From a virus, in IMG/VR virus record IMGVR_UViG_3300030098_005088, positions 1-53,806 of that record: DNA of 53,806 nt. The stretch is one strand, 5' to 3'. Both the position numbers and the translations under genes were made by a program. A model generated the notes under the pieces. It had not been told where the DNA came from, made no database searches, and saw only the letters and a program-made list of their open reading frames with translations. Positions 30,362 through 53,806 of the stretch are shown one piece after another (the first letter of the stretch is position 1; every line of letters begins with the position of its first letter).

Positions 30362-33300
30362 ATGAACTACGAAGAAGAGAATAGTCAATATGATTATTTA
30401 GCGAATCAACCATCTTATTTAGACCAACTTTCAGGGAATCAAGCTGGTGGAAGTTTAGAAGCATTAAAGCCTATTCAATATGATTCTATGCAGCAATGGA
30501 GAGTTTTTGACCCTCAAGGGTATCAGAGTGCGATAAGCCAACTTCAAGAAGAACAGGAACAATCTCAAGATCCTAATTATTTTTTAACAGACGATAAATA
30601 TATACCTGGAGTTTCAGACCTAACTACATTTGTAGGTAGTGCTTTATGGGGTGCTACTGAAGCTGTAAGCATGGGAGCTTTAACAGCACTAAATCAATCT
30701 TACAGAGGTGAAATAGGCAAGTCTTTTGGCTATGAGGCTTGGGAAAATGCAGCTGTATCAGGTAAAGCTGGATATTTAGCTGGAAGTATCCCTGCAAGTC
30801 TTTATACTTTAGGTTTAACAGGAAAAGGTTTAAGAGCTGCATCTGGGGCATTAGGAATTGGTCAAAAAACTTTAGCTAAATTTGGCGCAAAGCAAGTTGC
30901 AAAAGGAACTGATGATATACTATCTCAGGTAACTAAAGCAAGTGGAATGTCTGATGATGTTGCTACAGATGTATTTCAATTAGCTAATAAATCAATAAAA
31001 GAAGGAACAGACGAAGCTCTTGCTGCAGCTGAAACTTGGAAAACATCTAGTAGAATTAAAAAGAATCCTTTCGGAGATAGTGACTTACGGTTAGATATAC
31101 AAAATAGAACTAGGATTGCTATAAAAAGCAAGCTAGATGATATGGTAAAAGCTGGAGATGACGGAGCAGAATGGGCTGCAAAGGTGGGTGCAAATCCAAA
31201 TGCAATAGATAATATAGTTAATGAATCACTTAAACAAGCTCAGCAATATGGACATTTAGGAGCTGGGAACTTTTCAAGAGCTTTAGCTATTAAATTAGGA
31301 GATGGTAAGGCGGCTTCATATGTTGGAGATGCTGTTTATGAATCTATTCTACTAGCTACTCATTCAGCAGCTCATACAATTATAGGGAATTATAGTGCAG
31401 ATGCATTAGATTTATCTGAAGAAGAGTATCAGAGAAGAAGTTGGATGAAAGATGCCTTATTTAGTGCTGTTACTGGATGGTTCTTCCCTGCTGTTAGGAG
31501 GATAGGTGGAGGTAAAGATGTTCAAATAGCATGGGATGGTATGATACCTAGAGCCCAATCGGGATCTTTAAAAGATTTTCAGACAATGACTAAAGCTTTA
31601 TGGCAGAAACTTAACTCTCAACCAAAAGTTACATGGGATAACGCTGCTAAAACATTTGGAAAGGATAGTCAATTTACTCCTAAACAGGTTCAGACTATGC
31701 TAAGGAATATATATAATGCTAGTGGCAAAAGTGATGATGTTTTTAGAAATGCTGGTCCAGGTTTCAATATTTCCTTTTTAACCGATAGTAATGCTTTAAA
31801 TCATGCTAGTTCATTAAAAGCGTTGTATAATGCTTATAATTCAGTTACTAAAGATGCATTAAAGATAGCTGTCCCTATGATGAAAGAAATTGGAAAAGAT
31901 TTAACTCAATCAATGTTTAGAATGGTCCCTGGCACAGTAGTTATGAATGCTCATACATGGCATGAAACTGATTGGGATCACTATCCTGCAGACAAGATGG
32001 TAGTAGATGTTGTTACTGGTATGTTATTTATGAAAAGAAAACATAGAGCTCCAGGGGAAAAGTTGAAAGACTTTTATGGCTCAGGAGAATATACTGGTGC
32101 TGAACTTGCAAAATATGCTAAAACACTAGATATATTAAACTATGATAAAAAAACCTTAGATTATTACGCAGGAGTGTATAGCACTTTAGATGTAAATGAG
32201 CAACTGGCTAAGCAATTAGTAGGCAGAGCTAATAAATCTACTCAAGATAGAAGAGATTTAAGTGCTATGGTTGAAAAAGATAAGCTTAATAACATTAAAC
32301 TTGAAGAAGATATAACAACAAGAACTGCTAGAGGAGAAGATGTTAGAAGCTTTGAAGAGCATGGAGCATTAAATTATACTAAGAAAATACAAGAAGCTAA
32401 AAGATTAAGAGATCAAGGAAGAGATGCCGAAGCTAAGGCTATTGAACAGCAAGCAACTAAAGAATTAGCTGAATGGGATATAGCTAGAAAATTAGTAGCT
32501 TCTCTTGAATTAGGAGTAAGCAAAGAGTCAATCAGGCATATGACAGAGACTGAAGCTATAGACTTTATAAAAAAACTAAATTCTATTAAATGGAAAGGTA
32601 AAGAAGTTACTCATGAAAATGTAGATGATTTCTTAAGAGAAAGCAGAATAGCTGCAGTTAATGAAGTTACTGCTGATATACAAGGCTTAATGGAAGGTTA
32701 TATTAAAAATTCATTAAACGCTTTAGGTATGTGGAATGATGCTATGGTTCAAAAAGGGGGCCGTATTAACGTACATAAAGATGTTCTTGATGTTTTAGAT
32801 ATAGTTAATAAAGATATTAATCATGCAAAATCAGCAGAAGTACTAAAAGCAGTTCTTCATATGGCTGACAAGCTGAATATTATTAGGCTTGGAGAAGAGG
32901 GAATTAAATTTGAATCTTCAAGGAGAGAAAATCCTGTAGGTAAAGAAACTTTAGATTTACTTACTCAAGAATATAAAGCAGCTACTGACTTAATGCATGA
33001 TAAAGTGTTTAATGATGGCATGAGCAATTGGAGAAATGTAGTTCCAGGTAAAACTAAGGAAGGATTCTTAGATGTTAATATTCTAGCAGCAACTCCTATA
33101 TGGGATGCTATGCATACAAATATGCTTCATATGAGAAATGCTGTAGGATATGATTTAGTGACTGGCAGAAATCTAACTGGGATGAAGGATAACAGACTAG
33201 GAGAACTTCATGATAAAATAGACAGAGAACTGTATGAAGGGAATGCTAATGTAGCAATAAAAGATGTTCCTTCATCAAAAGATGTCCCTCATGTCCAAGA

Positions 33301-36300
33301 AGTTTTAGATTTTATAAATCATTACAATCAAGCAAGAAAGCTTACAGGAAGAGAAACAGGAACCAAAGAAATAGAATTTACGCAAGCAGAAAAATTCTTC
33401 CAAGAAGTAAAAGCTGAGACAGGTAGTATTTTCACGAATAAAGACCATTTTGCAGCCTTTAAAGACTATATGTACCAAGAGTACTTAACAGAAGTTACTG
33501 GAAGTGATTCTATTGGTAGAAGTTTGAGAAGAGCTGTGAATATGATTTTAGATAGAGATAATCCAATGGCTTTAAGGAATGATCAAAATGGAACTACTAC
33601 TATGCCTTCTTCTAAAGCATTAGAACAAGTGTTATTAGGAAATGTAAGTGAACAAGTAAGGCTTAGTGCTGCTCAAACTAAAGAAATTAGAGATTTAATA
33701 GAAATCTATAGACAGAATATTGAAAATACCCTAAAAGACAAAGGTAATATAATTAAGTTTTCAGATGATTTAATTTTGTCTGAAGCTTCTATATATACTA
33801 GAAAAGATTGGCAAAGACAGCTAACTAATATGGTAACCCAAATAGAAGGTGATAAGCTTTTTAGAATGGGTCATTTAATGAAGAATCTAGATATATTAAA
33901 AGGTTTAGTTGAGAATCCAATGTGGTCAGAAGTTGCTCATTACAAATCATTAAATGATATAGCAGCTAATAAGAAAGAAATAGAAGTTTTACAAAGAGAG
34001 TTTGCAGATTTAAGAATGAACACATTAAAGTTAGTAGAACTTATTTCTAATGCAGCTCAATATGGGGATGTTACTTTATTAAGAACAGCTTTAGACCAGC
34101 AGTTTAATTTAGAAAGAGCATTGGTTGAAGTGAATGAATTTACTGCCAATAAAAAAGCTTATGGCAGAGATACTACATTAGGCAGTCTAGCATCTCAGAT
34201 TGACGTAATGATAAAAGATATTATAAATAAAAGAAATGATAAACTAGGAATTGATAGCTATAATGATGTTCAGAAATTCATAGAAAGCCAGTCTGAGATA
34301 AATAGATATTCTGATAGTGCTGGTAGAATAGTAACTGAAAGACAAACAGTATCTGAGAATGTTTATTTAGATAGATACCAAGTAGGTGATAGAATGATGG
34401 ACATGCTTCGTGGTAATCTTAAATCTACATATGATAACTTTGATGGAGTTTCTGCAGCTGTTAAAGCTGTATTAAACAATCCTGCTATAAAAAATCAACC
34501 TTCACATATTAGAGAAGCTATACTTGAAAACTTAGATAAAATAGGATTAAATGAGCAGTCTTATATAACTCAAATTGTAGAGCCTCAATTAGCTCATCAT
34601 TGGAACGTAATTAAGAATACTAAGAAAGTTAAAGATGCTAACTTAACATATTCTCAATTTATCACTGATACATTTCAGTTGCTAACATCTAGTGGTGGTT
34701 CAAGTAGGATTCAAATAGCTACATATAAAGGTGGAGGTAAGTTAGATTTATCTACAGCTACTGTATCTAATTGGAATAAAGGATTCAATGCTCTTATTGA
34801 TGTATTTGGGTTTGATGCTTCGCCAGGTAGCTTTTTATTAGTTTCTCAAACACATGCAGCTCAAGGAAGATTAACTTCTAAATTAGATATGGCTACTATA
34901 GCTCAAATTAGAGCTGATTTGGGAGCGGGAATAGTCCCTAAGTTTAAAATGAGCGAACTATTAACTGCTGCAGAACAAAATGAACTTGCTAAGTTAATAT
35001 CTGGCAATGTCGTTGTTGGATCAGGTAGAAGAGGTGCTCCTCAGTATGGATTCTTTTCATTGGATTCTAAGACTATGGTTATGATTAATCATAATAAATA
35101 TAAAAGCATTATAGACCAATTTAGAAATCAAAACTCTGATGCTTACAATAGGTTTAAAGATGTATTGGGTCCTGAGACAGTAGAAGCATTCATAAGAGAT
35201 CATTTGAAGATAGATAAGGTTAATTTAACTAATCCTAACGAATCAGTAAATTCAGAGGTTATTGAAACTGTATTACGTGCAACAAGGCTTGCATTTGATA
35301 GACCTGACGTCTTAAGACAGTGGGCTAATGGAACTTTAGACCCTAATGATTTACCTAAAGTATTTAAATACTACAGCCTTTCTAGCCCTAAGAGTGGATT
35401 AGCATTAAATCAAAGAGTTTTAAAGCTAACAGATGCTTTTGTAGATAGAATGTTTGTAAATGACCCAGAATTAGTTCATATACGAGAGAAATACATGCAG
35501 CATAGGGTAGATGCACCTAAGCATAGAAAGTTCATAATATTTGATGAAAAAGACCCTAGCGGCAAAACTGGATTCTTTGATGCTTATACAAGGCATAGAG
35601 ATAGATTGGAAAGACAGCTTATTGAAGAATTTGGAATGTCTCCAGAAGTTGCTAAAGAAACAGCAACTAGGCTTGCAGAAAAAACTAAAGCTGAAAGCAA
35701 AAGTACTGTAGATGGTGAAGTATTTTTAAGCTTACCAGAAATGATATCAATGTTAGTGCCTAAAGGAGCTGACAAGAGTTGGTTCGTATGGGATAAAGGT
35801 GAAATAGTAGGATTTAATGTAGCTATTAAACCAGTAGTATCACATTCTGAAGTTAGCAAAAATGGTGCTATGACTGTAGTTATGGATAAAACAGCCTTTA
35901 AATTTGACCCAGTAATGGATAAAGCTATGAGAAACGCAGATGGTAAATATTGGACTGATTCAATAGCATTCAGGTCTGCTGTTAAAGTTGGTAAAAAATC
36001 TAATGGATGGGGACTTGAACCTACTGATATAGGAGTTGGAATTAAATTAGATACTCCTCTAGAGAAAGAATTAGGTGGAAGATTTAGTGATTGGAAAGAA
36101 GTTGTTGCAAAAGGGCTTGGAGCTTCTCCAAAAGGATTGATTAATCCTGGGATGGTAGAAGTAGATAGAGCTAACATATTGTTAAAATCTATCAGTGGCA
36201 AACATAAAGGATCAGTAAGTGTTGCTTATGGTAACTTTTTATCTAATGATGCTCAAAAAGTATTAGACAACTGGCTTGGAAGTACTGCTAATATATTTGA

Positions 36301-39300
36301 TTTAACTAGAAAGCTTTCTGTTATGAAAGATAATCCTTATGCATTACTACAAGTAGGTAGAGAAATGAGTAGAAATGAACTTCAGTCTGGAGATAGAAGT
36401 AGTAGACTTTCAGGTTTAGAGTTTATATTATCTGAAGGAGGATTACCTACATATGAATTCATGAGACCTCAAATAGAAAAATCATTAACATCATACTATA
36501 TGAATACTCAGAACTTTGTTAACGGTGAGATTAAGTTTGGAGGATATAATGTTATGACTGCAGGGTCAGGACTCTCTGATCCTATTAGGCATGCGGGGAT
36601 ACAAACTTCTTTTGGAGGCTCTGCTGTCCCTCATTTTACTGGGGAACAAGTAATAGGTCATATGTTAAGTTCGACTCATGCTGACGGAATTCCTTTAGTT
36701 ATGAAACTATCTAGTGCTAAGGCAAAAGAATTAAATAGAGTTTTAATAGATAAAATCAAAAAAACTGGTTTAAAGCTTGAAGTTGAAGATGCTAACTTTT
36801 TCGCTAAAGGTGAAGAGTATCTAGGCCTTCATTCTTTATCTGGAGATATGGTTACTGGTCCTATAATAGGTAAAATTAATAGAATTATATTAGATGGTAA
36901 CAGAACTACTAATAGGGAGATAGACCAAACATTTAGAAATAAAATAAATACAGCTGTAAGAGAAACTTTAATAGATGTTATAGCTAAAGATTATAGAGGA
37001 ATATTGAAGAATGCTTCAATTGAAATAGATAAAAGTAATATATCTTATAGTGATTTCGTTAAATACTTAGATAGAGGGTTTGATAAAAATCTAATTGAAA
37101 CCTCTGATCAATTAAACAGAGAATACAGAGTAAAGACAGGAAAGAATGCTAATTCAGGATATGCTGCCACTAAAACAGGATATGATGGTATCTTTGCGTC
37201 AGCTATAGACTTAAGAACTCCTAAAGATGGTATTAATAGCTGGGTAATTAGTAAAGTAGAAAAGATATTAGATAAAAGAAGAGGAGCTGTAAGTGAGATT
37301 AATCAAGCTGATGCGATAAATCCTCAAGATGCTGATTTCGATTTAGATAAAAGTGCTCAATTTACAACATCTCCATCTAAAGTAGTAGAAGAAATATATG
37401 GAGGTGCAGGTTATCACCAAAAGTCAAGTATAGAAATATTAAAGAAAGCTGGAATGGAACTTAAGATTGAAGGCCCAACATACGAGGTATATGTAAATGA
37501 AATGCTAGCACAATTAGACTCTCAAAGAGCTCCATTGGTTAGACAGCATTCAATAGCATCTTTTATTATGCAATACTTTTCTTCTGTTAATGAAGCGAGA
37601 ATGTACAATATATTAAAACCTGGATATAGAACGGGTGTTGACTTTACAGACGGGATAAGTAGAGTATCTAATAGCATACATGATACAGCAGTTATTTCAG
37701 AGTTTAAAGGATCTAATGACCAGTTATATAAAGTTTCCTTTAGAGAAGCTGGAGAATTTGTAGACTCTGTTCAGTTTATGAAAAGCATGATTAAAGAGAT
37801 GATTGATGTACATGGCTCACCTAAAGATTTAGGAGGTGTTAATACAAGAGATTTCTTTTGGTTTTCTAATAAAGTAGGCTTATTTAAAATACAGAAAAAA
37901 GACTTTAAATCAGGTAAATATGAAGAGATTAATTGGAATGATATGAGTGCTGATGTTAGAGCTGTTCAAAAAGGTTTATCAAAGCATGTAGTCAAACCTT
38001 TGAATGATATATTTAATTTAAAAAATGGAGTTGAGACCCTAAGCGACGGGTCAAGTAGAAAGCTTACTGTATATGATTATGTTAGTATTTTTAATAATGC
38101 TAAATGGGAGATGTCTAGATTAAAACCTTTTAAGGTATGGGACCCTACTCAGAAAAAAATGGTTTCTGTAACTCCTTATATGGACAGAAATAAAAGGCCT
38201 ATGTTAGAATCTTTTGCTAATGATATGCTTGCATTTTTAGGAGATGGTTGGTCTCAACGTAATGGAACAGCAAATCATCCTCTTATAAAAGGTTTAAATG
38301 AATTAAGCAAAGCTTTAGATAAGCAATTTACAGGAAGAGATATACAGAGAAATGACCTTCTTGCTAATTTAATAGAAGGTAAGATGCATCCTACCGATGA
38401 AGTAGTAAGCAAAGCATTAAAAGAATATGTTAGAGATGAACAAAGATGGGTAGAGCTATCTAGTGTAAGATGGGAAATAAATAGACTTTCAGATATATTA
38501 AATGATATGCAGGTTTTTAGACAAGATAAAACCAATGAATACGCTAAAAAACAGGCTAGACTAGAAAGACTTAGTAAAATTATGGATGCTGCAGAAACAG
38601 AATTTAATAACACATATATAGGCAAGGCAATTCCTAAAACAAAACGTGGAGGTTATTCAGCAACAGAAGTAACTAGAGTCTATAAGTTAAATGCTAATAA
38701 AGAAGTTATTGACTTTACAGATTATAGACCAGGAGAATTCATTAAGTTTAATAGAGGTGATGTTGTTATTGAAAATCCTAGAAGATATGTTATATCTGAC
38801 AATTTAGATCAAGACCATAGAAGAGCTATGTATAGAGCGTTTGGTAATAGGAATAAAGGAGTTTCAGAGTTTGATGCTTTCCATAAAAATGGTTATATTA
38901 GAGAGCTTAAAAGAGACCTATTTAGCAAAATTGGCGATTTAAATAAAAATAGCTCCGATCAAACTATTAGAGACAGTCAGTTTTATTCTGATATATCTGA
39001 GATGGAATTAAGTATCATGAGAGATGTTTATAATAAAGCTAAAATGAGAGGAGATGCATATGCTACTCAGTTCTTATGGAGCTTATTAACTCCTAAAGTA
39101 AATCAAAATGTAGTATCTATTATGAATTATGATGCTCATGCAAACTCTTATTTCAATTCTTTTTATTTCAACTCTAATAAAAGGTCTGAGAAATTAGTTG
39201 TTAGCTTTTTAAGTAGGGCTATGGAAGGTAAGGTTCCTGAGATATCTTCAAATGATGCGAGGAGTATCTTAAAAAACATAGATAAGAGAAAAAACTTAGC

Positions 39301-39736
39301 ATTAGTTAAAGAATGGGGTAAAACATTAGATGGCGAAGCATTTAGAATGGTGGACAGAGATATAGAAAGAAACATAACTGATTTTAGAGTGCTCCCAGAA
39401 AGAAGTGATTCTCCTCACTGGAATAGAGTTGATGTTAAAAATGAAAGTGCTAGAAGAATAATGCAATCATATATGACAGGTTCTTATAGATTAGACCCTA
39501 TTGAACTATATAGACTTACTGCAGCATTAGATAAAACTAATAACAGTATGATAGATGTAAATAGAATGAGTGAATTAGTTAAAGGTTATTGGACTGATAT
39601 AAGTGATATTGACTTAGGTAGAGGTTCATTTAGATATTCCAGAAGGTCTATGAGAGAAAAAATGGAATTAAACAGAGAATATACTAAAAAAAGAGACGCA
39701 TTAGAGGCTATTGAAGAGTCGGCTTGCGGATTATAA
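30362..39736 (+). CDS. Giant virion protein, probable two-barrel virion RNA polymerase (crAss-like), 3124 aa
   Basis: The 3124-residue protein is the largest gene and is expected to be packaged and ejected. Around residues 2285-2335 it reads RTPKDGINSWVISKV, then about 25 residues on NPQDADFDLDKSAQF, with Asp at 2325, 2327 and 2329. This closely matches my memory of the catalytic region of crAss-like virion RNA polymerases (RxPxQGLNS...DFDIDK), in which the DxDxD triad holds the metal in a double-psi barrel. The N-terminal 120 residues contain small-residue hydrophobic helices (SALWGATEAVSMGALTALNQ; GYLAGSIPASLYTLGLTG) suited to membrane passage. The rest is mostly helical with acidic and basic patches. 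AAGGGGG precedes the ATG. I saw no T7/N4-type polymerase motifs, but structure prediction is needed. Confidence 0.7.
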   Translation: MNYEEENSQYDYLANQPSYLDQLSGNQAGGSLEALKPIQYDSMQQWRVFDPQGYQSAISQLQEEQEQSQDPNYFLTDDKYIPGVSDLTTFVGSALWGATEAVSMGALTALNQSYRGEIGKSFGYEAWENAAVSGKAGYLAGSIPASLYTLGLTGKGLRAASGALGIGQKTLAKFGAKQVAKGTDDILSQVTKASGMSDDVATDVFQLANKSIKEGTDEALAAAETWKTSSRIKKNPFGDSDLRLDIQNRTRIAIKSKLDDMVKAGDDGAEWAAKVGANPNAIDNIVNESLKQAQQYGHLGAGNFSRALAIKLGDGKAASYVGDAVYESILLATHSAAHTIIGNYSADALDLSEEEYQRRSWMKDALFSAVTGWFFPAVRRIGGGKDVQIAWDGMIPRAQSGSLKDFQTMTKALWQKLNSQPKVTWDNAAKTFGKDSQFTPKQVQTMLRNIYNASGKSDDVFRNAGPGFNISFLTDSNALNHASSLKALYNAYNSVTKDALKIAVPMMKEIGKDLTQSMFRMVPGTVVMNAHTWHETDWDHYPADKMVVDVVTGMLFMKRKHRAPGEKLKDFYGSGEYTGAELAKYAKTLDILNYDKKTLDYYAGVYSTLDVNEQLAKQLVGRANKSTQDRRDLSAMVEKDKLNNIKLEEDITTRTARGEDVRSFEEHGALNYTKKIQEAKRLRDQGRDAEAKAIEQQATKELAEWDIARKLVASLELGVSKESIRHMTETEAIDFIKKLNSIKWKGKEVTHENVDDFLRESRIAAVNEVTADIQGLMEGYIKNSLNALGMWNDAMVQKGGRINVHKDVLDVLDIVNKDINHAKSAEVLKAVLHMADKLNIIRLGEEGIKFESSRRENPVGKETLDLLTQEYKAATDLMHDKVFNDGMSNWRNVVPGKTKEGFLDVNILAATPIWDAMHTNMLHMRNAVGYDLVTGRNLTGMKDNRLGELHDKIDRELYEGNANVAIKDVPSSKDVPHVQEVLDFINHYNQARKLTGRETGTKEIEFTQAEKFFQEVKAETGSIFTNKDHFAAFKDYMYQEYLTEVTGSDSIGRSLRRAVNMILDRDNPMALRNDQNGTTTMPSSKALEQVLLGNVSEQVRLSAAQTKEIRDLIEIYRQNIENTLKDKGNIIKFSDDLILSEASIYTRKDWQRQLTNMVTQIEGDKLFRMGHLMKNLDILKGLVENPMWSEVAHYKSLNDIAANKKEIEVLQREFADLRMNTLKLVELISNAAQYGDVTLLRTALDQQFNLERALVEVNEFTANKKAYGRDTTLGSLASQIDVMIKDIINKRNDKLGIDSYNDVQKFIESQSEINRYSDSAGRIVTERQTVSENVYLDRYQVGDRMMDMLRGNLKSTYDNFDGVSAAVKAVLNNPAIKNQPSHIREAILENLDKIGLNEQSYITQIVEPQLAHHWNVIKNTKKVKDANLTYSQFITDTFQLLTSSGGSSRIQIATYKGGGKLDLSTATVSNWNKGFNALIDVFGFDASPGSFLLVSQTHAAQGRLTSKLDMATIAQIRADLGAGIVPKFKMSELLTAAEQNELAKLISGNVVVGSGRRGAPQYGFFSLDSKTMVMINHNKYKSIIDQFRNQNSDAYNRFKDVLGPETVEAFIRDHLKIDKVNLTNPNESVNSEVIETVLRATRLAFDRPDVLRQWANGTLDPNDLPKVFKYYSLSSPKSGLALNQRVLKLTDAFVDRMFVNDPELVHIREKYMQHRVDAPKHRKFIIFDEKDPSGKTGFFDAYTRHRDRLERQLIEEFGMSPEVAKETATRLAEKTKAESKSTVDGEVFLSLPEMISMLVPKGADKSWFVWDKGEIVGFNVAIKPVVSHSEVSKNGAMTVVMDKTAFKFDPVMDKAMRNADGKYWTDSIAFRSAVKVGKKSNGWGLEPTDIGVGIKLDTPLEKELGGRFSDWKEVVAKGLGASPKGLINPGMVEVDRANILLKSISGKHKGSVSVAYGNFLSNDAQKVLDNWLGSTANIFDLTRKLSVMKDNPYALLQVGREMSRNELQSGDRSSRLSGLEFILSEGGLPTYEFMRPQIEKSLTSYYMNTQNFVNGEIKFGGYNVMTAGSGLSDPIRHAGIQTSFGGSAVPHFTGEQVIGHMLSSTHADGIPLVMKLSSAKAKELNRVLIDKIKKTGLKLEVEDANFFAKGEEYLGLHSLSGDMVTGPIIGKINRIILDGNRTTNREIDQTFRNKINTAVRETLIDVIAKDYRGILKNASIEIDKSNISYSDFVKYLDRGFDKNLIETSDQLNREYRVKTGKNANSGYAATKTGYDGIFASAIDLRTPKDGINSWVISKVEKILDKRRGAVSEINQADAINPQDADFDLDKSAQFTTSPSKVVEEIYGGAGYHQKSSIEILKKAGMELKIEGPTYEVYVNEMLAQLDSQRAPLVRQHSIASFIMQYFSSVNEARMYNILKPGYRTGVDFTDGISRVSNSIHDTAVISEFKGSNDQLYKVSFREAGEFVDSVQFMKSMIKEMIDVHGSPKDLGGVNTRDFFWFSNKVGLFKIQKKDFKSGKYEEINWNDMSADVRAVQKGLSKHVVKPLNDIFNLKNGVETLSDGSSRKLTVYDYVSIFNNAKWEMSRLKPFKVWDPTQKKMVSVTPYMDRNKRPMLESFANDMLAFLGDGWSQRNGTANHPLIKGLNELSKALDKQFTGRDIQRNDLLANLIEGKMHPTDEVVSKALKEYVRDEQRWVELSSVRWEINRLSDILNDMQVFRQDKTNEYAKKQARLERLSKIMDAAETEFNNTYIGKAIPKTKRGGYSATEVTRVYKLNANKEVIDFTDYRPGEFIKFNRGDVVIENPRRYVISDNLDQDHRRAMYRAFGNRNKGVSEFDAFHKNGYIRELKRDLFSKIGDLNKNSSDQTIRDSQFYSDISEMELSIMRDVYNKAKMRGDAYATQFLWSLLTPKVNQNVVSIMNYDAHANSYFNSFYFNSNKRSEKLVVSFLSRAMEGKVPEISSNDARSILKNIDKRKNLALVKEWGKTLDGEAFRMVDRDIERNITDFRVLPERSDSPHWNRVDVKNESARRIMQSYMTGSYRLDPIELYRLTAALDKTNNSMIDVNRMSELVKGYWTDISDIDLGRGSFRYSRRSMREKMELNREYTKKRDALEAIEESACGL

Positions 39737-39745
39737 AGGGGAATT

Positions 39746-42733
39746 ATGAGTTATTGCCACGGACAAAGATTTAATACTGAAGAACAAAAAACTAGAGTTA
39801 AAGATGTGAAGAAAGTAGTCTCTGGTTTTGTTAGTAACCCTAAGGTTGTTGCTACAGGATATGGTGATTTCAGTACATTTAAATGGCTCTGGAATAAGGC
39901 TACTGGGACTCCCTGGGATCCTGTAACATTTAAAATAGATAAGTCTGATATAGCAAGGTTTAAAGTTGAGGCTTCTGATTTTATATCAGAAATAGGTAAA
40001 AATCCTGCAGGGTGGAGGCAATGGTTTAAACTTCCTAAAAGATTAACAGATAAAATGCCTGAAACTGAAGCTTTTACTCAAGGAATATCTGATGCAATAT
40101 CTTTCAGACAAAGACATTTAAGAGAAAATGGTGTTAAAGTAGATAGCATGCTTAAAGGTTTAGAAAAAATGTTTCATATGGAAGAATATTATGGAAAAGC
40201 TATAAAAAAATCAGATTATAGAGAGTATCAAAACTTAGAATTAGAATTAGAGCTTGCTAAATCAGTAACCCAAAGAAGAAAAGCTTTAGATAAGATTATT
40301 AAAAAAGCAGGATTAAAAGATTCTGATAACAATCCAGTATTAGGGCAGATATTATTTAGATTTAATGATTTAATTACTTTTAGATCAAATGCTAAGAATG
40401 AAGTAGAAAGACAGATACAAAGAGATTGGAATGATGTAAGGAAAGATTCAGCTTCTATGGCATTATCTGGTATAAATCATGCAAAAAGATTAATACAAAC
40501 TGTAAAAGACCTGCCTACAAGACATCGACTTAAGTTGGCTATTTCTAGATTAGAATCGGCTGCAAATAGAATATTCTTTCAATCTAAAACAGATAATCTT
40601 AAAATAGTAAAAGACCCAGATTTATCTCAGTTTAGAATAAAAGAGAACGAAATTCAAGTTTATGATGCTGACTCTAATACTATGAAGCCTCATAAAGTAT
40701 ATGACCCTTCTACAAATAAATTTGAAACTCCTATAGAGCTTACAAAGTATGCTCCAGAATATGTTATAGAATTAGCAAATACAACTAGATATATTACTGA
40801 GTTTGCAATGAATCCTAAAGATGCTAGATTTAAAGATATGACAGCAGATAAGATATTAAATGAAATTGAAACTAAAGTTGATTTAGGTTCTATGATCAAT
40901 AGACTTAAAGCTAAAGGAGATGCTCAGTCAGAGCATTTTTATTCATTAGACCCAGCTTTCTATCTAAAGAAATATATACATGATGTATCTCATTTTAACT
41001 TTGCTACTAAAATACATTTAGATTATAAGAATGCAGTAGATAAGATGTTTAGTGTTATTCGTAAGGGTAAATATAATACTGCGGAGCTATCTGATTGGGC
41101 TAAGTCTCATTTAGATGTATTAACAGATATTAAAGACTCTGCTTTAAACATGCATGAAGGTAAAATAGCTGAAATGAATAATGTAGTAAGAGCTATTACA
41201 GGCTTAGAATATATATCAAAGTTAGGATTTAGTATAAAAGGTGCTATCAAGAATAGAACTCAAGGTCTGTTTGATTTTATACAATTTGGAACTAGGATAT
41301 ATACTAAGGTTCCTGATTTTTATTCATCTAATAAGATGCACGTAGAAATGGCTGATAGACAGATGAATAGATTTGGTTTTAAATTCGGAGAAAAAGCTAC
41401 TGCTGCTGGCATAGCTGAAGCCACTAGAGGTTCTATAGATATTGAAAAAGCTAATAGAATAGACCCTGAAAAAGGATTAACTATTGAAGGAATGAGTAAA
41501 GGAACTGTTGCTAACAGAGCTATTGATGCTTCTGCTGACTTCGCATCAGGTTTCTGGGGCCCTTTATCTCATAAAGGAGTTGAGAATTCAAACAGAATTA
41601 ATACATTTAAGCGTTCTTTTGCTTTAACATATATGGAAATGATGAAACAATCTGATTATTGGGCTAAAGAATGGATGAGATCTAGGAATACTAATGTTGA
41701 ACCATCAGATAAACAGCTTGCTGAGTTTATAGAGTATAAAGCTGGTAATTTATCTGCTAATATGGTTAAGACGCTTCACTTTGAATATGATAGGTGGGCT
41801 AAGGCTAAAGTATTAAAAACTGGTCCAGGTCAAGTTGTAGGTCAGTTCCAAACTTTTAAATTTGCATTCTGGGATTTACAATATCAAATGTTGAAAGGTG
41901 CTGTCAAGGATGCTAGAGCTGGAACTATGATAAGGGATGGAAAAATATCCCCTGAAGTTGCTAGAGCTATGAGATTATTATCAATGTATTCATTTATAAC
42001 TTATGGCATATCAGCATTAACTGACCATGATTTTACAAATGTTATACAGAATGATAGCTTTCAGTTTATGAGTCAAATAAGTGATTGGCTAACAGCTGAT
42101 CCAGATAGCGCTACAACAAATGAAGAATTTGAAAGAGAAGTAAAGAAAAAACACATGTCTTTCTTTGGAGGAGGTCCTTTGGTAGGTAATATGGGTCCTG
42201 CGGTAAATGATTTACTTGCATTAGCAGAACTATATGATTTCTGGGATAGAACTCCAGCTGAATACCAAGAACTGCTTCATCATAAATACAATCCAGATGA
42301 CCCTAAATGGAATGAAAATGTGGATAGAATCATAATGGGTAATGCATTAGCTAGATGGAAATGGCATGTAATACCTTCTTTATTAAGAGGTTCTGAAGAA
42401 TCCACATTAAGACAGGTTACAGGTCTATATCAACCTAAATGGGTTGATAAATGGATACCTATTGATCCGTTCAACATGAGAGATATGGATGAGTCTTTTT
42501 CTAAGCAAAGAAGAGATTGGCTTAAAGATAAGCCCTGGAGTGTAGCTAATTTATATTCTAAATATATATTAGATGGTCAAAAAGAAGTATTTAAAAAGTC
42601 TAACAAGAAGGGCTCTATTAATGACTATTATAGACTAACAGGACAATCACATTTAAAACCACCATCTGTCGAAACTGGGGAAAGTCTGGAAGCGATAGAT
42701 ATACTAGATAAGATATTAGCTGGGGAATTATAA
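39746..42733 (+). CDS. Internal virion protein following the giant protein, 995 aa
   Basis: AAAGGGG precedes the ATG, nine bases after the giant gene. The 995-residue protein is mostly helical. The C-terminal third has a conserved-looking run (GPGQVVGQFQTFKFAFWDLQ, then MLKGAVKDARAG), hydrophobic helices (SMYSFITYGISALT) and a Trp/Pro-rich region (RWKWHVIPSLLRG) like large internal proteins of short-tailed and crAss-like phages. It is the last gene of the rightward block and ends inside the loop of the terminator at 42718-42744. Confidence 0.7.
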   Translation: MSYCHGQRFNTEEQKTRVKDVKKVVSGFVSNPKVVATGYGDFSTFKWLWNKATGTPWDPVTFKIDKSDIARFKVEASDFISEIGKNPAGWRQWFKLPKRLTDKMPETEAFTQGISDAISFRQRHLRENGVKVDSMLKGLEKMFHMEEYYGKAIKKSDYREYQNLELELELAKSVTQRRKALDKIIKKAGLKDSDNNPVLGQILFRFNDLITFRSNAKNEVERQIQRDWNDVRKDSASMALSGINHAKRLIQTVKDLPTRHRLKLAISRLESAANRIFFQSKTDNLKIVKDPDLSQFRIKENEIQVYDADSNTMKPHKVYDPSTNKFETPIELTKYAPEYVIELANTTRYITEFAMNPKDARFKDMTADKILNEIETKVDLGSMINRLKAKGDAQSEHFYSLDPAFYLKKYIHDVSHFNFATKIHLDYKNAVDKMFSVIRKGKYNTAELSDWAKSHLDVLTDIKDSALNMHEGKIAEMNNVVRAITGLEYISKLGFSIKGAIKNRTQGLFDFIQFGTRIYTKVPDFYSSNKMHVEMADRQMNRFGFKFGEKATAAGIAEATRGSIDIEKANRIDPEKGLTIEGMSKGTVANRAIDASADFASGFWGPLSHKGVENSNRINTFKRSFALTYMEMMKQSDYWAKEWMRSRNTNVEPSDKQLAEFIEYKAGNLSANMVKTLHFEYDRWAKAKVLKTGPGQVVGQFQTFKFAFWDLQYQMLKGAVKDARAGTMIRDGKISPEVARAMRLLSMYSFITYGISALTDHDFTNVIQNDSFQFMSQISDWLTADPDSATTNEEFEREVKKKHMSFFGGGPLVGNMGPAVNDLLALAELYDFWDRTPAEYQELLHHKYNPDDPKWNENVDRIIMGNALARWKWHVIPSLLRGSEESTLRQVTGLYQPKWVDKWIPIDPFNMRDMDESFSKQRRDWLKDKPWSVANLYSKYILDGQKEVFKKSNKKGSINDYYRLTGQSHLKPPSVETGESLEAIDILDKILAGEL

Positions 42734-47096: not shown

Positions 47097-47681
47097 TTAC
47101 TCAGGCATTCCTGCGAAGATGTCCGTAGTGTCATCTCCTTCGTTTATTACCTTGTCGAACTCTTCATGTTCGGTTGTATCAGATACAAAGCCATTAGTAC
47201 TTTCTGAGGGATGCTGTTTTCCAACAACATAATCATTATAGTATTTTTCACATGACTTTTTCCAATAATTAACATCATTTGAGCTGAATTTCTCAACTTG
47301 ATTTTCGAACTCTGTTGGAGCTACGTTAGGTAAAACTCGGAAGTAATCACCTTCTTTGTATAAGAAGAGATTTAGTTGTTTGTTAGCTAATTGTCCAGGT
47401 GAATCATCTATCTGTACTAAAGATTCTCCATCTTCAGCAGAAGATACTGATTGTATACCTGCATTAGCGAATCGGAATATTCTTCCAATTGCGAACTCTT
47501 CTCCGTCCTTGCCTTTTTTTGCATATACCCTTAAATTAAGTGATTCGGGGTAGTCTTTAAACCAGATATCAAGAAATTTAGTTCCTTGCCAATCTCCATA
47601 AGCTGCCTTATGAATAGTTGCTAGATTCCATCCTTCTTGAAAGTTTCCGCCACCACCTTTCTTAATCGTTAGTGTTCTCAT
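47097..47681 (-). CDS. Probable single-stranded DNA-binding protein, 194 aa
   Basis: GAGGAGG lies six bases before the ATG, inside the end of the ATPase gene. The 194-residue protein has a basic, beta-rich N-terminal two thirds (LTIKKGGGGNFQEGWNLATI; TKFLDIWFKDYPESLNLRVY) and an acidic, disordered C-terminal tail ending DDTTDIFAGMPE, the layout of phage SSBs. Its coupling to the Sak4-like ATPase suits a recombination or replication partner. Family assignment by layout and context. Confidence 0.68.
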   Translation of the reverse strand: MRTLTIKKGGGGNFQEGWNLATIHKAAYGDWQGTKFLDIWFKDYPESLNLRVYAKKGKDGEEFAIGRIFRFANAGIQSVSSAEDGESLVQIDDSPGQLANKQLNLFLYKEGDYFRVLPNVAPTEFENQVEKFSSNDVNYWKKSCEKYYNDYVVGKQHPSESTNGFVSDTTEHEEFDKVINEGDDTTDIFAGMPE

Positions 47682-48438
47682 TTGAATCCTCCTCGTTTAC
47701 TTTAGTTAAGGTTTGCAATGCGAAGGTTTTACCACTACCAGGAGAGCCGATAATAAGAATTCTACAATTCTCAAATCCTCTTTCATTAGCTGCAGCTATA
47801 ACCTTGCTATAGTCTTGATCCATTTCAACTGGAAGCAAGCTAGTTCTATCTTTAGCGTGATCATACATCTCGCTTCTTTTGGTTACCCATTTAAAAACTC
47901 TTGAATTATCAGGAGCAGTTGTAGTTTTACAATAGAATACGAAATCAAACCATTTAGATATATCTTCTTTAGTAGAACCATCGATATACGGAGTTAATTT
48001 TGTTGTTCCATCATCCATTGTAGATGTTTTTGAATGGCATGTACATATTACTACTCCAGGTAATCTGCTTATAAACTCTAGAGCTACATCTAAAGTATTT
48101 TTAAGCCTTCCCCAATCTTGTAGTTTTAGTTTACCATCTTTATCAGTTAAACTTCTCATATATTTCTTAGATAGTTCACTGAAAGTATCTAATACAATAG
48201 CGTCAACAGTTGTGCCATTCTTTGGTATTACTTGACTAGAAGTTTCAGGAATTTCTAATCCACCAATTTTATGTATTACTTCTGTTTTCTTTGTTGTATA
48301 GATTTGAGCGATTGTTCTTTGAAAGTCTACCCAAGAGGTAGGACTTAAGACTGGAAAACCAAACATCTTGGAAATGTGCTCTTTACTTCCAATAGTTTGA
48401 TGTCCGCGTTCTAGGTCAAACATGAGTACTTTACGCAT
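47662..48438 (-). CDS. RecA/Sak4-like ATPase, apparently circularly permuted, 258 aa
   Basis: The protein has the elements of Sak4-type RecA-fold recombination ATPases but in rotated order. It begins MRKVLMFDLERGHQTI, normally the strand after the P-loop, then Walker B VDAIVLDT (78-85), WGRLKNTLDV, and the sensor-like strand GVVICTCHSK (128-137), and SKWFDFVFY. The Walker A motif GSPGSGKT is at residues 231-238, 20 residues before the C-terminus, on a strand RILII. In normal relatives Walker A comes first. All motifs are intact, so activity is expected. AGGAG lies before the ATG at 48438; the end overlaps the SSB-like gene by 20 bases. Confidence 0.78.
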   Translation of the reverse strand: MRKVLMFDLERGHQTIGSKEHISKMFGFPVLSPTSWVDFQRTIAQIYTTKKTEVIHKIGGLEIPETSSQVIPKNGTTVDAIVLDTFSELSKKYMRSLTDKDGKLKLQDWGRLKNTLDVALEFISRLPGVVICTCHSKTSTMDDGTTKLTPYIDGSTKEDISKWFDFVFYCKTTTAPDNSRVFKWVTKRSEMYDHAKDRTSLLPVEMDQDYSKVIAAANERGFENCRILIIGSPGSGKTFALQTLTKVNEEDSNENTND

Positions 48439-49267: not shown

Positions 49268-49289
49268 TTTTTCTCCTAATTAAATTATA

Positions 49290-49655
49290 AGTTATTAGAG
49301 AGAATGCCTGCGTTTTGCGTATGCAGTATTGATATAATCTCATGCTTCATCGACTTATTGAGTGTCTTCTCGGGACTTACATCTCTCTAAATTATTAATA
49401 GTTGATATGCTACGGAGGACGCCGCCGAGGTAGCACTCGACCTGGACCTTTAGTTACCAGGGACATGGGGTGGAGGCGTCACGGTATCGCTGCTGTTTAC
49501 GGGGTAAACTCCCTGTCTGCACGATTCGTTTGCTTGTCCTATATCAAACTATTTCAAATTTAGGGGTAGCGTTTAGGATTCTAGTAGCTGATTCTATTGG
49601 TATTGTTTGACACATCATCAGTTGCTAGCATTGGATCGATACTACCCCTCTCCTC
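49290..49655 (+). ncRNA. Candidate structured RNA of about 0.37 kb beside the Ubl cassette
   Basis: No gene fits this 397-bp gap (49268-49664), which is richer in G and C than its surroundings. Inverted repeats nest into domains. TTAGAGAGA/TCTCTCTAA (49295-49303 with 49382-49390) encloses CTGCGT/ATGCAG (49308-49326). GACGCC/GGCGTC (49418-49423 with 49475-49480) encloses CGAG/CTCG and CCTGG/CCAGG hairpins. GTTTAC-GGG-GTAAAC is at 49495-49509. AGGGGTAG/CTACCCCT (49562-49569 with 49642-49649) encloses a 12-bp helix CTAGTAGCTGAT/ATCAGTTGCTAG. Three G-U pairs occur only on the plus strand, so the RNA probably runs against the flanking minus genes. I cannot match a known RNA class. Confidence 0.6.
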
Positions 49656-49664
49656 CGCACAAAA

Positions 49665-50327
49665 CTATCTAGCAAGAACCTTCTCCATAGTCATACTAGG
49701 GAAATGAAATGATATAAATTTATCATAAGGTTGTCTTGTTGTTAGTTTTCTCACAGTATTAGAAATAAATGAACCACTCATATTGGAACAATAGCTGGTT
49801 GCTTTTGCATTACAGGGTTCAGGATCACCAGATTCATCTGAGTACCATGTTGAATTGTATTGCGGAACTGTTGGATATTTGAGGACATATTGTTGATAAT
49901 GCTCAGCACCCATTCTACCGTCTATCATTGCAAAAGGAGATAATTTCTTATCAGCACAGATTTTTTCTACAGCATTTAATCTAGCTTTCATACTATCAAA
50001 GGCTAGTATTACTATATCTTTTCTATTTTGATAAGATATTTGTTCAAACATTCCTATATTTATCTCAACGTATAAATTACCAGGAATAGATTCTAAATGT
50101 TTTTTCAAAGCTCTAACTTTAAACTCATTTACATCTTCCTTGGTATATAAAGATACGCCAAGATTTTCTATTGCTACTTTATCTAAATCATATAGATAGA
50201 AATCATCAGCCCCCATTCTACGTAATTGCATAGCAGTACAACTACCTATAGCTCCACATCCTAAGATATGAAAAGAGTGCTCATGTAAGTTATTTACTAA
50301 TCCAGAGGATCTTTCGTTAAATTCCAT
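49665..50327 (-). CDS. E1/ThiF-like Ubl-activating enzyme, 220 aa
   Basis: Predicted to adenylate the C-terminus of the phage Ubl and pass it on. The start is the ATG at 50327, eight bases after GGAGG; two in-frame ATGs up to 50348 lie upstream of this site. The N-terminal Rossmann part shows HILGCGAIGSCTAMQLRRMG (GxGxxG at 23-28), then YLYDLDKVAIENLGVSLY with D47, D49, N55 and K70 as in E1 and ThiF enzymes, and ILAFDSMKARLN. Cys at 172 and 180 (PCNAKATSYC) could form the thioester. At 220 residues it is compact, lacking extra domains. It overlaps the JAMM gene by 11 bases. Confidence 0.85.
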   Translation of the reverse strand: MEFNERSSGLVNNLHEHSFHILGCGAIGSCTAMQLRRMGADDFYLYDLDKVAIENLGVSLYTKEDVNEFKVRALKKHLESIPGNLYVEINIGMFEQISYQNRKDIVILAFDSMKARLNAVEKICADKKLSPFAMIDGRMGAEHYQQYVLKYPTVPQYNSTWYSDESGDPEPCNAKATSYCSNMSGSFISNTVRKLTTRQPYDKFISFHFPSMTMEKVLAR

Positions 50328-51276
50328 GTAAATATCCTCCATATCCATCGTCTATATCTTCATATTCTACAAAATCATGGTCATCGTTATGTTGAATAGC
50401 ATCAAATAATTCACCTTTATGCATTAGAATTATCTTATATTGAAAGCCTTCTTCATCAGCTTGAGCATTGATTTTATTGACTCTGTTTTTATATTTAGTA
50501 TAACTTAATTCACCCATAATGTAATTATGGTTTAGTTCTTTAACTGAATCTACCATATTTAGATATTCTTTAATATCTTCAGGAGATTGACTTAAAGCTT
50601 GAGTTGTTGGATTATTTAACATTGGTTCATGAATTGGTTTATCCCACAGAGTAGCTTGTTGTTGATTTCCAGTTAGTTTATATCCTGTAGTTCTTGCAGT
50701 TCCCCATCCTGAATAGCCTGAGTAACCTTTATGAATTACAGTTTCTTTACTACATAGTTCTTCTACTTCTGTTTGAATAGCATCAGGTACAGTTTTACCT
50801 TCTAATCCTATTACTTCAAACTCTACGTCTTGATGAATTTCTATTGGTTTCCAAATAGATACTCTAAATTTATATTCTTGTTTTAAATTTATAACAAGAG
50901 CAAAACTTATATCTCCTTCATTAAATTCATCAATAGCTGTTAAGTCTGTTGAGCTCCAGAATGCTGCCATAGTATGATGTGAATGCCACCAACAAAATCT
51001 AAAATTCATATCTTTATATTTCATTGCTGTTTTTCCATAATACTGCGCTAATGCATCTTTGTCTAGGTCACAGTTACCTCCACTAACTTCCTGTTTAAGT
51101 ATTACTGGGTCCATTAACACCCAATCACCCTTTTTAATATCTGTTTTTTCTGAATCACTTGGAGACTCAACCATAACAGCCATACCTCCTATTTCAGCTT
51201 TCCATTTATTATAAGCATGTTGAGCATAATGATGCATTTTCATCCAGTTTTTATGAGTTGTTAAGAAACGGTTCAT
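50317..51276 (-). CDS. JAMM/JAB metalloprotease, predicted Ubl-processing enzyme, 319 aa
   Basis: Zinc peptidase of the JAB1/MPN family, predicted to trim the Ubl tail or remove Ubl from targets. The JAMM motif is complete: E28 (WKAEIGGMAV), H98-x-H100, S108 and D111 in HSHHTMAAFWSSTD, matching HxHx7SxxD. The catalytic domain spans about 10-160; about 160-319 is a second region that includes a Gly/Tyr-rich stretch (GYSGYSGWGTARTTGY) and a helical C-terminus of unknown use. GGGAGG lies nine bases before the ATG. It overlaps the E2-like gene by 26 bases. Confidence 0.9.
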   Translation of the reverse strand: MNRFLTTHKNWMKMHHYAQHAYNKWKAEIGGMAVMVESPSDSEKTDIKKGDWVLMDPVILKQEVSGGNCDLDKDALAQYYGKTAMKYKDMNFRFCWWHSHHTMAAFWSSTDLTAIDEFNEGDISFALVINLKQEYKFRVSIWKPIEIHQDVEFEVIGLEGKTVPDAIQTEVEELCSKETVIHKGYSGYSGWGTARTTGYKLTGNQQQATLWDKPIHEPMLNNPTTQALSQSPEDIKEYLNMVDSVKELNHNYIMGELSYTKYKNRVNKINAQADEEGFQYKIILMHKGELFDAIQHNDDHDFVEYEDIDDGYGGYLHGI

Positions 51277-53029
51277 CGTCTGGTTCCTCCCATTGTTGCA
51301 TTATAGTTTCCTCTGAAACATTCTCTGCTTCAGCTTGTTCTTCTTCTGTTATTTCAGGTAGATGGTCATTCCTTCTATTGTGAGGATGGTCGTCTCTGTC
51401 ATCATATGATTCAGATGTATATTCCCCATTGTCTCGCAATTCATAGTTAGGATCTTCAGCATCCGCTGCTCTTTCCATTGAAGTTCTATTAACATTAATA
51501 GGTTGTGCTGTTTGACCATTTGCTGCCATTTGTGCTAGTATTCTATCTTCTTTAGCTTTTTGTGAAGCTTTCTTTCTTTCTTCTGGGTCTTCATTAGCTA
51601 ACTCACGTAAACCATCAAATACATTACTGTTTAAATAACAATTAACAAATGTATAAAGACTATCTGCTTTATCTTCATTGCTTAATCTATCATATAAACT
51701 ATCCCACTCTATATGAAGGTTAATCATAGTATCGTAATATTCTCCAATAGTCTGATCGTCTAGTCCTTCATGTAGCTGGTTTTGAAAATATACTCTTATA
51801 TCACTATCAGTAAATCCTTTATGAGTAAGAAAGTCTTGAAATATTTTCGATATCTCACTTTCACTATACTTTACACTTAATATTTGATATATTGTACAAT
51901 TTCCTCTATTTTCGCATTTGTCGTTATCACATATTTGTTGTACATGAGAATAATCTTCTATGACAGTTCTATCATCAGCCTCTCTTAATCCACTTACTAT
52001 TTGGCATCTTTCATGTCTTCCTATTACATCATACATTTCAGTAGGGAATATTGAAGGTTTGCCTACAAAAGTATCTCTTATATTATTAAGAGGATTAGTC
52101 GAAGGAACTCTATATATACTGTTCCATATATTTAGCATAGTTAATGCTTCTTCTAGTTCCAGTTTATATATATGTGTTTGTATTTGTTTACCTAAATCAC
52201 CTAAACATATTTGGTTTCTTACATTATAGTTAGTCAAGATATTTTCTTCATTATTTGCATTAGTACGCTCATATGGAGACCTATATCTTCTAGATATATA
52301 AGGATGCTGTTTAAAGTATCTAGTACCAAAATAATATCCATATATGTCCATTTTATTTCCTCTGCTATAATATCCATCACGAAAGGCAGGATTGCATCCG
52401 CTAATAAAGTTGTTTAAGTGTTTAAACATATTAACAGAAAATAATAACTGCACTTTATGTCTAGGTATTTCTCCTATTAGTTGATCTTGATTAAACAATG
52501 AGAAATGTCCTTCAGGTAAATCTATAACTATATTCCATGTAAATCTTCTATACGATGGTGCCCCAGTATCTTCATTATATATTGGGTTAATAGTTACTGA
52601 TACATTATCAATAGATGATATTTCATTCATTCTACTTTTTATAGAATCAAAAGCATCTTCTATTTGCTCTGTATTGTCAGTCATTACAATGTTTTGCCTA
52701 GTTAAATGATTTCTCATATCTTCTATTTTTAGTATATCTCTCTTAAAATTATTAGCACTATAGCTATAAGAGCTCATTCTGTCAAATATAGAATACATTC
52801 CGCTAGGTTTCATTTTAAATCTTAAGCCTTCATTAGCATAAGATGTCTTTATGGTATTATAAGTACCTGGAGACCAATAAAACTTTTTAGTAAGTTTTAC
52901 ATTAGTTCCCCATCTTGAATTGAATCGTTCTAATTCTTCTAATATTTCTGCTTGCGGTCCAAGGAATATGTTATTTGCCACCTCTTCAATATTAGGGTTG
53001 AACTCATCTATTTGCATTATTTCATTCAT
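51251..53029 (-). CDS. E2-like protein with extended domains, 592 aa
   Basis: Predicted to carry activated Ubl on a cysteine and transfer it to targets. Residues about 164-315 read like an E2 fold: a strand FTWNIVIDLPEGHFSLF, then HPYIS at 242-246 and NQICLGDLG at 272-280, matching the HPNI...G-ICL signature with C275 as the predicted catalytic Cys, and a later TNPLNN (311-316). The N-terminal 150 residues and the middle part with three Cys (C367, C372, C378) are unassigned; about 475-592 is acidic and disordered. At 592 residues it is about four times a minimal E2. GGAGG precedes the ATG. The fold is inferred from motifs. Confidence 0.72.
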   Translation of the reverse strand: MNEIMQIDEFNPNIEEVANNIFLGPQAEILEELERFNSRWGTNVKLTKKFYWSPGTYNTIKTSYANEGLRFKMKPSGMYSIFDRMSSYSYSANNFKRDILKIEDMRNHLTRQNIVMTDNTEQIEDAFDSIKSRMNEISSIDNVSVTINPIYNEDTGAPSYRRFTWNIVIDLPEGHFSLFNQDQLIGEIPRHKVQLLFSVNMFKHLNNFISGCNPAFRDGYYSRGNKMDIYGYYFGTRYFKQHPYISRRYRSPYERTNANNEENILTNYNVRNQICLGDLGKQIQTHIYKLELEEALTMLNIWNSIYRVPSTNPLNNIRDTFVGKPSIFPTEMYDVIGRHERCQIVSGLREADDRTVIEDYSHVQQICDNDKCENRGNCTIYQILSVKYSESEISKIFQDFLTHKGFTDSDIRVYFQNQLHEGLDDQTIGEYYDTMINLHIEWDSLYDRLSNEDKADSLYTFVNCYLNSNVFDGLRELANEDPEERKKASQKAKEDRILAQMAANGQTAQPINVNRTSMERAADAEDPNYELRDNGEYTSESYDDRDDHPHNRRNDHLPEITEEEQAEAENVSEETIMQQWEEPDDEPFLNNS

Positions 53030-53120
53030 TTGCCCTCCAAGGTTGTATAAAAGGGAAATATATACTAATATCCTCCGACAAGATATATTCTACACCTCCC
53101 TTTTAAATGATTAAAGTTTA
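53030..53120. other. Spacer between Ubl and E2-like genes
   Basis: A 91-bp AT-rich gap. Two purine-rich GGAGG-like sequences lie in it besides the true ribosome site of the E2-like gene, but no convincing short gene follows either of them. It may hold an internal promoter or an mRNA leader; I see no clear elements. Confidence 0.35.
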
Positions 53121-53363
53121 CTATCCGATTACATAATAGACAACTGATTCTAACCCACCAGTTTTATTATTTTGGACAGCTGCTATTATTTGACCATCTG
53201 ATAATTCAAAATCGTCTGTTCTAACAACTCCATCAACACTTACTGACGCACCTGAAGCTATATCAAGTTCAGTTCTTAAAGCTCCAACTGTACCTGCATT
53301 TACTTCTTGTTCTTCAAATCCACCACCTGATAGTATTCTTACTTTTTTACTTGCGTTTGCCAT
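53121..53363 (-). CDS. Ubiquitin-like beta-grasp protein with C-terminal extension, 80 aa
   Basis: Predicted small modifier. The 80 residues read like MoaD/ThiS and ubiquitin: first strand VRILSGGG, strand and helix (VNAGTVGALRTELDI), VSVDGVVR, then DFELSDGQIIAAVQNNKTGG, the segment that in MoaD-type proteins leads to the terminal Gly-Gly. Gly-Gly is at 69-70 and is followed by ten residues (LESVVYYVIG), so a peptidase, probably the JAMM enzyme downstream, must expose it. AAGGAG precedes the ATG at 53363. It is followed by the E2-like, JAMM and E1 genes in order. Confidence 0.82.
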   Translation of the reverse strand: MANASKKVRILSGGGFEEQEVNAGTVGALRTELDIASGASVSVDGVVRTDDFELSDGQIIAAVQNNKTGGLESVVYYVIG

Positions 53364-53518: not shown

Positions 53519-53806
53519 CAGAATCTCCTCGATTTATCCATCATTCTCTTATCACTTCGATATATATCAAAGTACCCTATACGCTCTATAGGATTAGTGA
53601 ACACGGTATAAAACTTAGATTTTGCTAATAATTCCATATCAGTAGATGCAGATAATAATTCTGTCAATCTAATTCCAGCTTCTTGTTTAGGAAAATCACC
53701 AGATGTTATAGTAACATGTAAAGCTCTATTATTGTTTGGTTGTGTTTCAATAAGTTGTCCATTATCTGTTAATATATTAACATGTATAGCACATACTTCA
53801 TCATTA
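53518..53806 (-). CDS. Unknown protein, C-terminal part (gene starts at left end of window)
   Basis: This is the end of the 154-residue gene whose start is at 271. The frame enters at the right edge and stops at a TGA at 53518-53520. The C-terminal part includes ALHVTITSGDFPKQEAGIRL and a basic ending (RSDKRMMDKSRRF). One HxT-like element (HVTI) is visible but not a pair, so no phosphoesterase is claimed. It is coupled to the 47-residue gene by TGATG. Confidence 0.85.
   Translation of the reverse strand, partial: NDEVCAIHVNILTDNGQLIETQPNNNRALHVTITSGDFPKQEAGIRLTELLSASTDMELLAKSKFYTVFTNPIERIGYFDIYRSDKRMMDKSRRF
53712..53806. repeat. Terminal direct repeat, right copy (contig closure)
   Basis: Identical to 1-95 except at 53730 (T here, C at 19), giving Asn here and Asp in the left copy of the same gene. 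It marks contig closure of a genome of about 53.7 kb. Confidence 0.93.

Follow-up and report, generated by a model that had tools for sequence, protein, structure and literature searches.

The virus record IMGVR_UViG_3300030098_005088 of IMG/VR, analysed over its whole length of 53,806 bases (referred to here as the window), carries a cassette of four adjacent genes that encode a ubiquitin-like protein (Ubl), an E2-like protein, a JAMM/JAB metallopeptidase and an E1-like adenylating enzyme. The first 95 bases of the record are repeated at its end (window 1-95 and 53712-53806) with one mismatch, and this terminal repeat makes it probable that the genome is complete. Its GC content is 0.343, and it encodes its own virion and lysis genes, namely terminase subunits, a portal, a major head protein, a match to an internal virion protein and an endolysin. 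Shine-Dalgarno-like leaders precede 34 of the 40 genes checked in the window, and three of the four cassette genes have Shine-Dalgarno-like starts. A preliminary description of the stretch had placed four co-directed, mostly overlapping genes here, and this arrangement was confirmed. The genes follow one another in the order Ubl, E2-like, JAMM, E1, all on the minus strand (Table 1); two of the three junctions overlap, by 26 nucleotides (nt) between the E2-like and JAMM genes and by 32 nt between JAMM and E1, and the Ubl and E2-like genes are spaced by 91 nt.

Table 1 Features of the cassette locus in the window (ORF, open reading frame; aa, amino acids).
Feature	Position	Strand	Description
Ubl	53121-53363	minus	ORF of 80 aa; ...NNKTGG-LESVVYYVIG; predicted beta-grasp, K-T-G-G and 10-aa tail
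E2-like protein	51251-53029	minus	ORF of 592 aa; HPYI at residues 242-245, ICLG with C275
JAMM/JAB metallopeptidase	50317-51276	minus	ORF of 319 aa; EIGG...HSHx7SxxD
E1-like adenylating enzyme	49665-50348	minus	ORF of 227 aa; single ThiF domain, GCGAIG, DLDKV...N...K
Intergenic stretch after E1	49268-49664	none	GC-rich, possibly structured at about 49390-49664; neighbour of the cassette

The view that this phage genome holds a complete Ubl, E2-like, JAMM and E1 cassette was upheld; the four genes are co-inherited and adjoin replication genes. Co-occurrence, the absence of which in related phages would have counted against the preliminary description, was assessed at 80 JAMM loci from IMG/VR, and a partner was counted only where the flank allowed. 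At loci with enough flank, E1 was found in 74/74, the E2-like gene in 49/49 and Ubl in 50/50, and all 54 loci that held the four genes kept the same order and the same strand. Because order and strand were always kept and no member was missing where the flank allowed, the cassette is not a chance arrangement. A search of 22 related records identified E1 in 15, each of which (15/15) carried the full set, and seven records lacked both E1 and JAMM. One near-full-length relative, G020, retains an apparently permuted Sak4-like gene, an SSB-like (single-stranded DNA-binding) gene and a helicase gene, and gave no significant match to any of the four cassette genes in the stretch examined. Since G020 keeps the neighbouring genes without the cassette, the set appears to have been gained or lost as a unit. 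Relatives of the large terminase subunit form a large uncultured clade; in the phage collection, the best of the terminase matches listed had about 26% identity, and a search of that collection for cultured relatives of the major capsid protein returned no match. Purifying selection acts on each of the four genes, most strongly on Ubl and E1 (ratio of nonsynonymous to synonymous substitution rates 0.03-0.27 for both), then on JAMM (0.13-0.32) and least on the E2-like gene (0.26-0.51), a pattern that points to a conserved core and a variable, presumed recognition part.

Judged by sequence, the family assignments of E1 and JAMM are certain. The window E1 matched Pfam ThiF at 4.2e-18, above the cut-off, and the motifs by which it had been recognised (GxGxxG, DxD...N...K) hold throughout the family: GxGxxG, DxDxV, N, K, DGR, C179 and C187 were invariant in 16/16 members. 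Invariant C179 is the candidate thioester cysteine. A profile of the 16 phage E1s matched UBA5, MccB, UBA6, ThiF, Cap2 and BubCD in the PDB. No close E1 relative was found with the E1 profile among 84,980 bacterial and archaeal genomes in GTDB (29 pattern matches, none confirmed), a scan that reaches only patterns common to the marine clade to which the window belongs; this absence from the scanned cellular genomes suggests that the marine E1 is a phage-specific lineage. A plasmid search with the window E1 returned only two distant ThiF-family matches. The E1 tree recovered the marine clade as one group with support of 90/93, its deeper branching order being unsure owing to long branches.

The JAMM motif HxHx7SxxD, present in the window as HSHHTMAAFWSSTD, was kept in 81/81 members, as the claim of a JAMM peptidase would have it, and the EIGG-type Glu in 79/81. 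The family profile matched the archaeal Rpn11-like JAMM 6fjv at 2.1e-5 and the window protein matched a PADLOC JAB model at 5.7e-6; the Pfam Prok-JAB score of 0.006 was under the cut-off. When the JAMM or the E2-like protein alone was scanned against IMG/VR, no direct relatives were found. The Ubl is a single domain of about 70 residues, and its AlphaFold2 (AF2) model (predicted local distance difference test, pLDDT, 75) shows a strand-strand-helix-strand-strand order. Foldseek matched this model to Mth1743, MoaD, ThiS and ubiquitin-like proteins in the PDB with probability of about 1, Pfam ThiS matched 9/15 Ubl family members (best 9.5e-5), and K-x-G-G occurs in all Ubl members listed, with tails of 0-60 residues, mostly 1-3. 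The proposal of a beta-grasp modifier with Gly-Gly plus a tail is thus well supported, the fold itself being a prediction at moderate confidence.

The fourth protein had been called E2-like from an HPYI...ICLG hallmark, which stood in part. P243 and C275 and G277 were each conserved in 58/58 members and I245 in 56/58, but the His of HPYI varies: 11/16 aligned members have it, and the others have Phe or Tyr. From its N-terminus the protein comprises a helical region, a beta-meander (143-200), P243xI245, C275 within C-x-G, a cysteine cluster and a low-confidence C-terminus. The AF2 model places helix, beta-meander, P-x-I, Cys and helix in an order compatible with an E2, and the E2 label is based on motif, element order and genomic position. 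C275 is the candidate catalytic cysteine. The cluster formed by C342 (57/58), C367 (15/16), C372 (57/58) and C378 (56/58) is likely a metal site. The E2-like protein had no match in the phage collection and only six significant Foldseek matches in a viral structure library. One of these, A0A516LHL3 (BFVD/UniProt), is identical to the 592-aa protein, so the genome has seemingly been deposited elsewhere too; the other five, with related accessions, are apparently members of its own family.

Searching with the window E1 by tblastn identified 76 phage records, the named ones nearly all being crAss-like or Flavobacterium phages. In Crassvirales (Steigviridae, e.g. crAss001 gp79-gp76) and in Flavobacterium phage FpV4, Ubl-like, E2-like, JAMM and E1 genes lie in the same order beside a primase and a uracil-DNA glycosylase gene, and E1 and JAMM are homologous to those of the marine family (HHalign 99.9% and 96.2%, respectively, for crAss; 99.3% and 93.8% for FpV4). 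Ubl and the E2-like protein showed no significant sequence similarity between the marine family and the crAss-like and FpV4 phages. In the latter, the Ubl has a K-S-G motif, as opposed to the marine K-x-G-G, and a long C-terminal extension follows it; the E2-like motif is MHSH...C-x-G rather than P-x-I...C-x-G; and an extra gene follows E1, which is not the case in the marine cassette. A cassette of this kind is made up by the crAss001 genes gp79-gp75 (L004 2295-7517), whose annotations read thiamine biosynthesis, metalloprotease and hypothetical; gp78 is the E2-like gene, gp77 JAMM and gp76 E1, and gp75, the gene after E1, recurs at the same place in other crAss-like phages. Neither ubiquitin nor ThiF is mentioned in the main text of the crAss001 paper or of Yutin 2021.

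Bacterial operons with Ubl, E2, JAB and E1 have been classified as types 6a-6e (Iyer et al. 2006, PMC1779556). The bacterial system closest to the phage cassette in gene order and E1 is PRTRC / type 6d (PMC1779556; TIGR03735-TIGR03738, TIGR03742), which shares the order Ubl, E2-like, JAMM, E1 in separate, unfused genes. In the plasmid operon of Comamonadaceae OS-4, whose proteins match the NCBIfam PRTRC models, the order is Ubl, F, E2-like, JAMM, E1. HHalign aligned the phage and PRTRC E1s with 95.6% probability, both JAMM proteins contain HSH...AF[FW]SSTD, and both E2-like proteins contain a C-L-G active-site-like motif. In contrast, the phage cassette lacks the helical PRTRC_F gene that OS-4 has between Ubl and E2, the OS-4 Ubl ends in a terminal single Gly whereas the phage Ubl has K-x-G-G and a tail, and no counterpart of the absolutely conserved type 6d His downstream of the E2-like Cys is found among the phage conserved positions after C275. 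Membership in PRTRC by curated cut-offs was rejected, as the NCBIfam scores were far too low (TIGR03735, 15.5 against 101.8 bits; TIGR03736, 26 against 144.75 bits), and the PRTRC_B and PRTRC_C models had no match in the window.

The antiphage Bil operons (BilABCD), named as relatives in the preliminary description, contain the same four components, but that kinship did not hold. BilA contains a pair of Ubl domains, BilD combines an inactive and an active adenylation domain with a Cys domain, and BilB carries CEHH (PMC11354881), whereas the phage proteins comprise a single-domain Ubl, a 227-aa E1 with one adenylation domain, and an E2-like active site of the form P-x-I...C-x-G. Bil membership was accordingly rejected on E1 and Ubl architecture. 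The cassette is real and functional-looking, and by the features tested it is separate from both Bil and curated PRTRC. With Cap2/Cap3 of the cyclic-oligonucleotide-based antiphage signalling system (CBASS) it has E1 and JAMM chemistry in common, and Cap2 was among the PDB matches of the phage E1s; however, Cap2 fuses E1 and E2 and conjugates cGAS without a Ubl protein (PMC10097602), and the phage genes are separate and include a Ubl. The tail Ubl of Lambda and T1 (TAPI), with its JAB protein TAPK, constitutes type 5, a tail-assembly module that has no E1 or E2 (PMC1779556). Although Ubl and JAMM are common to both, this candidate was rejected since E1 and E2-like genes are present and the cassette lies beside replication genes. 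Among open-licence papers, no report of a phage-encoded full set of Ubl, E2, JAMM and E1 was found, which is no proof of novelty.

The neighbours of the cassette are genes for a Sak4-like annealing ATPase, a Gam-like protein, a resolvase-like endonuclease and a primase-helicase, and these replication and recombination genes suggest action during replication. The Sak4/AAA_24-like ATPase (window 47662-48438, minus strand, 258 aa) has its Walker A motif, GSPGSGKT, near residue 230, after the rest of the core; it looks circularly permuted, and its conservation extends to G020 and to 27 related ORFs. The structured RNA that had been proposed next to the cassette was borne out in part. The stretch 49390-49664 is GC-rich and folded modestly better than shuffled sequences on both strands (z -2.15 on the minus and -2.25 on the plus strand), but it matched no Rfam family, tRNA or tmRNA. 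Several relatives conserve pieces of this GC-rich stretch after E1, L206 for example at 96% over 83 nt. In eight loci (L152, L154, L164, L180, L187 and L192-L194) a radical-SAM (S-adenosylmethionine) gene of 286-291 aa with the motif GFGC-YKC-YCYMRRH is inserted at the Ubl/E2-like or the E2-like/JAMM junction, and its Cys motif resembles by eye that of spore photoproduct lyase. Elsewhere in the window, plus-strand ORFs of 3124 aa (30362-39736) and 995 aa (39746-42733) had no Pfam match, and the latter had no PHROG match either.

We consider it probable that the cassette is a phage-encoded, reversible ubiquitin-like conjugation system that diverged from the PRTRC / type-6d kind and is used early in infection. 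We infer a pathway in which the JAMM protein would trim the short tail and expose Gly-Gly on the Ubl, and E1 would adenylate the Ubl C-terminus with ATP and may hold the Ubl on C179. The E2-like protein would then take the Ubl on C275 and pass it to target proteins, while the Cys cluster and the variable C-terminal part of the same protein would serve as an inbuilt, E3-like target-recognition module, and JAMM would also be able to remove the tag. The targets would probably be host or phage proteins that are present when the adjacent replication and recombination genes are active. The location of the genes and the rapid evolution of the E2-like protein argue for action on variable targets early on, rather than for a part in the virion. 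It is about as likely as not that this is a complete viral ubiquitin-like conjugation pathway, a phage-specific lineage of abundant marine phages and of crAss-like gut phages, which controls the early stage of infection through covalent tagging of host or phage proteins.

Several observations weigh against conjugation, and most concern the E2 assignment, which is the weak link. The claim that the fourth protein is E2-like was sustained in its conserved P-x-I and C-x-G and its fitting element order, but not by recognised homology: it had no Pfam match as a single sequence or at the family level, profile searches of the PDB found no known E2, Foldseek gave no significant PDB match, and Prok-E2_D had no match in the window even at E 10. 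The AF2 model has low confidence around the active site, and alignments to the crAss and PRTRC counterparts are statistically weak, though the cysteines pair. The early timing of expression is read from gene position alone, and we know of no function for the PRTRC / type 6d branch. These missing matches would fit a protein that is not an E2 but a substrate or scaffold, with E1 and Ubl carrying out a direct or peptide-type modification similar to MccB and ribosomally synthesized and post-translationally modified peptides, or to SAMP. MccB is among the E1 matches and no E2 takes part in archaeal SAMP systems, yet P-x-I...C-x-G is conserved, the helix and meander follow in E2 order and the gene occupies the position of PRTRC_B, filed as E2-like; we regard this as the least likely of the alternatives.

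A sulfur-carrier pathway would also account for a short, single-domain, ThiF-type E1 and a Ubl that matches ThiS. The Ubl would be ThiS- or QbsE-like, trimmed by JAMM and converted by E1 to a thiocarboxylate, and the fourth protein would act in thiol transfer or as a substrate in the modification of a nucleic acid or small molecule. The prevalence of tails of very few residues recalls QbsE, and operons of ThiS/MoaD, JAB and E1 are known for sulfur chemistry (Iyer et al. 2006, PMC1779556). Against this, no rhodanese or other sulfur-metabolism family was found among the window proteins scanned (not every ORF), every set includes, as E2-containing operons do, a fourth protein that has an invariant Cys, and its fast evolution suits variable macromolecular targets, so we consider this pathway unlikely. 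Counter-defence against host Bil, Bub or CBASS Cap2/Cap3, in which JAMM strips host tags or a decoy Ubl competes, is quite unlikely. In its favour, bacteria do use Ubl systems against phages (PMC10097602, PMC11354881), gain or loss as a unit would suit such a role, and the PADLOC E1-E2 and JAB models were among the nearest profiles. However, that similarity is at the superfamily level only, and JAMM alone would be enough for stripping, whereas in every case E1 and the E2-like protein accompany it and retain their active-site residues.

Ubl conjugation with E1, E2 and JAMM in bacteria is known chiefly as antiphage defence, and the action of the Bil and CBASS systems against phages has been studied experimentally (PMC10097602, PMC11354881). 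The full set is present in hundreds of marine viral contigs of an abundant, uncultured phage group, and it is also carried, in diverged form, by the cultivable crAss-like phages crAss001 and DAC15, whose hosts are Bacteroides, so its function would be testable in an existing phage-host pair. The cassette reading further suggests a function for the crAss001 genes that bear thiamine biosynthesis, metalloprotease and hypothetical labels. If phage-encoded conjugation is correct, it would be the reverse of the bacterial use of such pathways against phages, and viruses of bacteria would run their own ubiquitin-like signalling.

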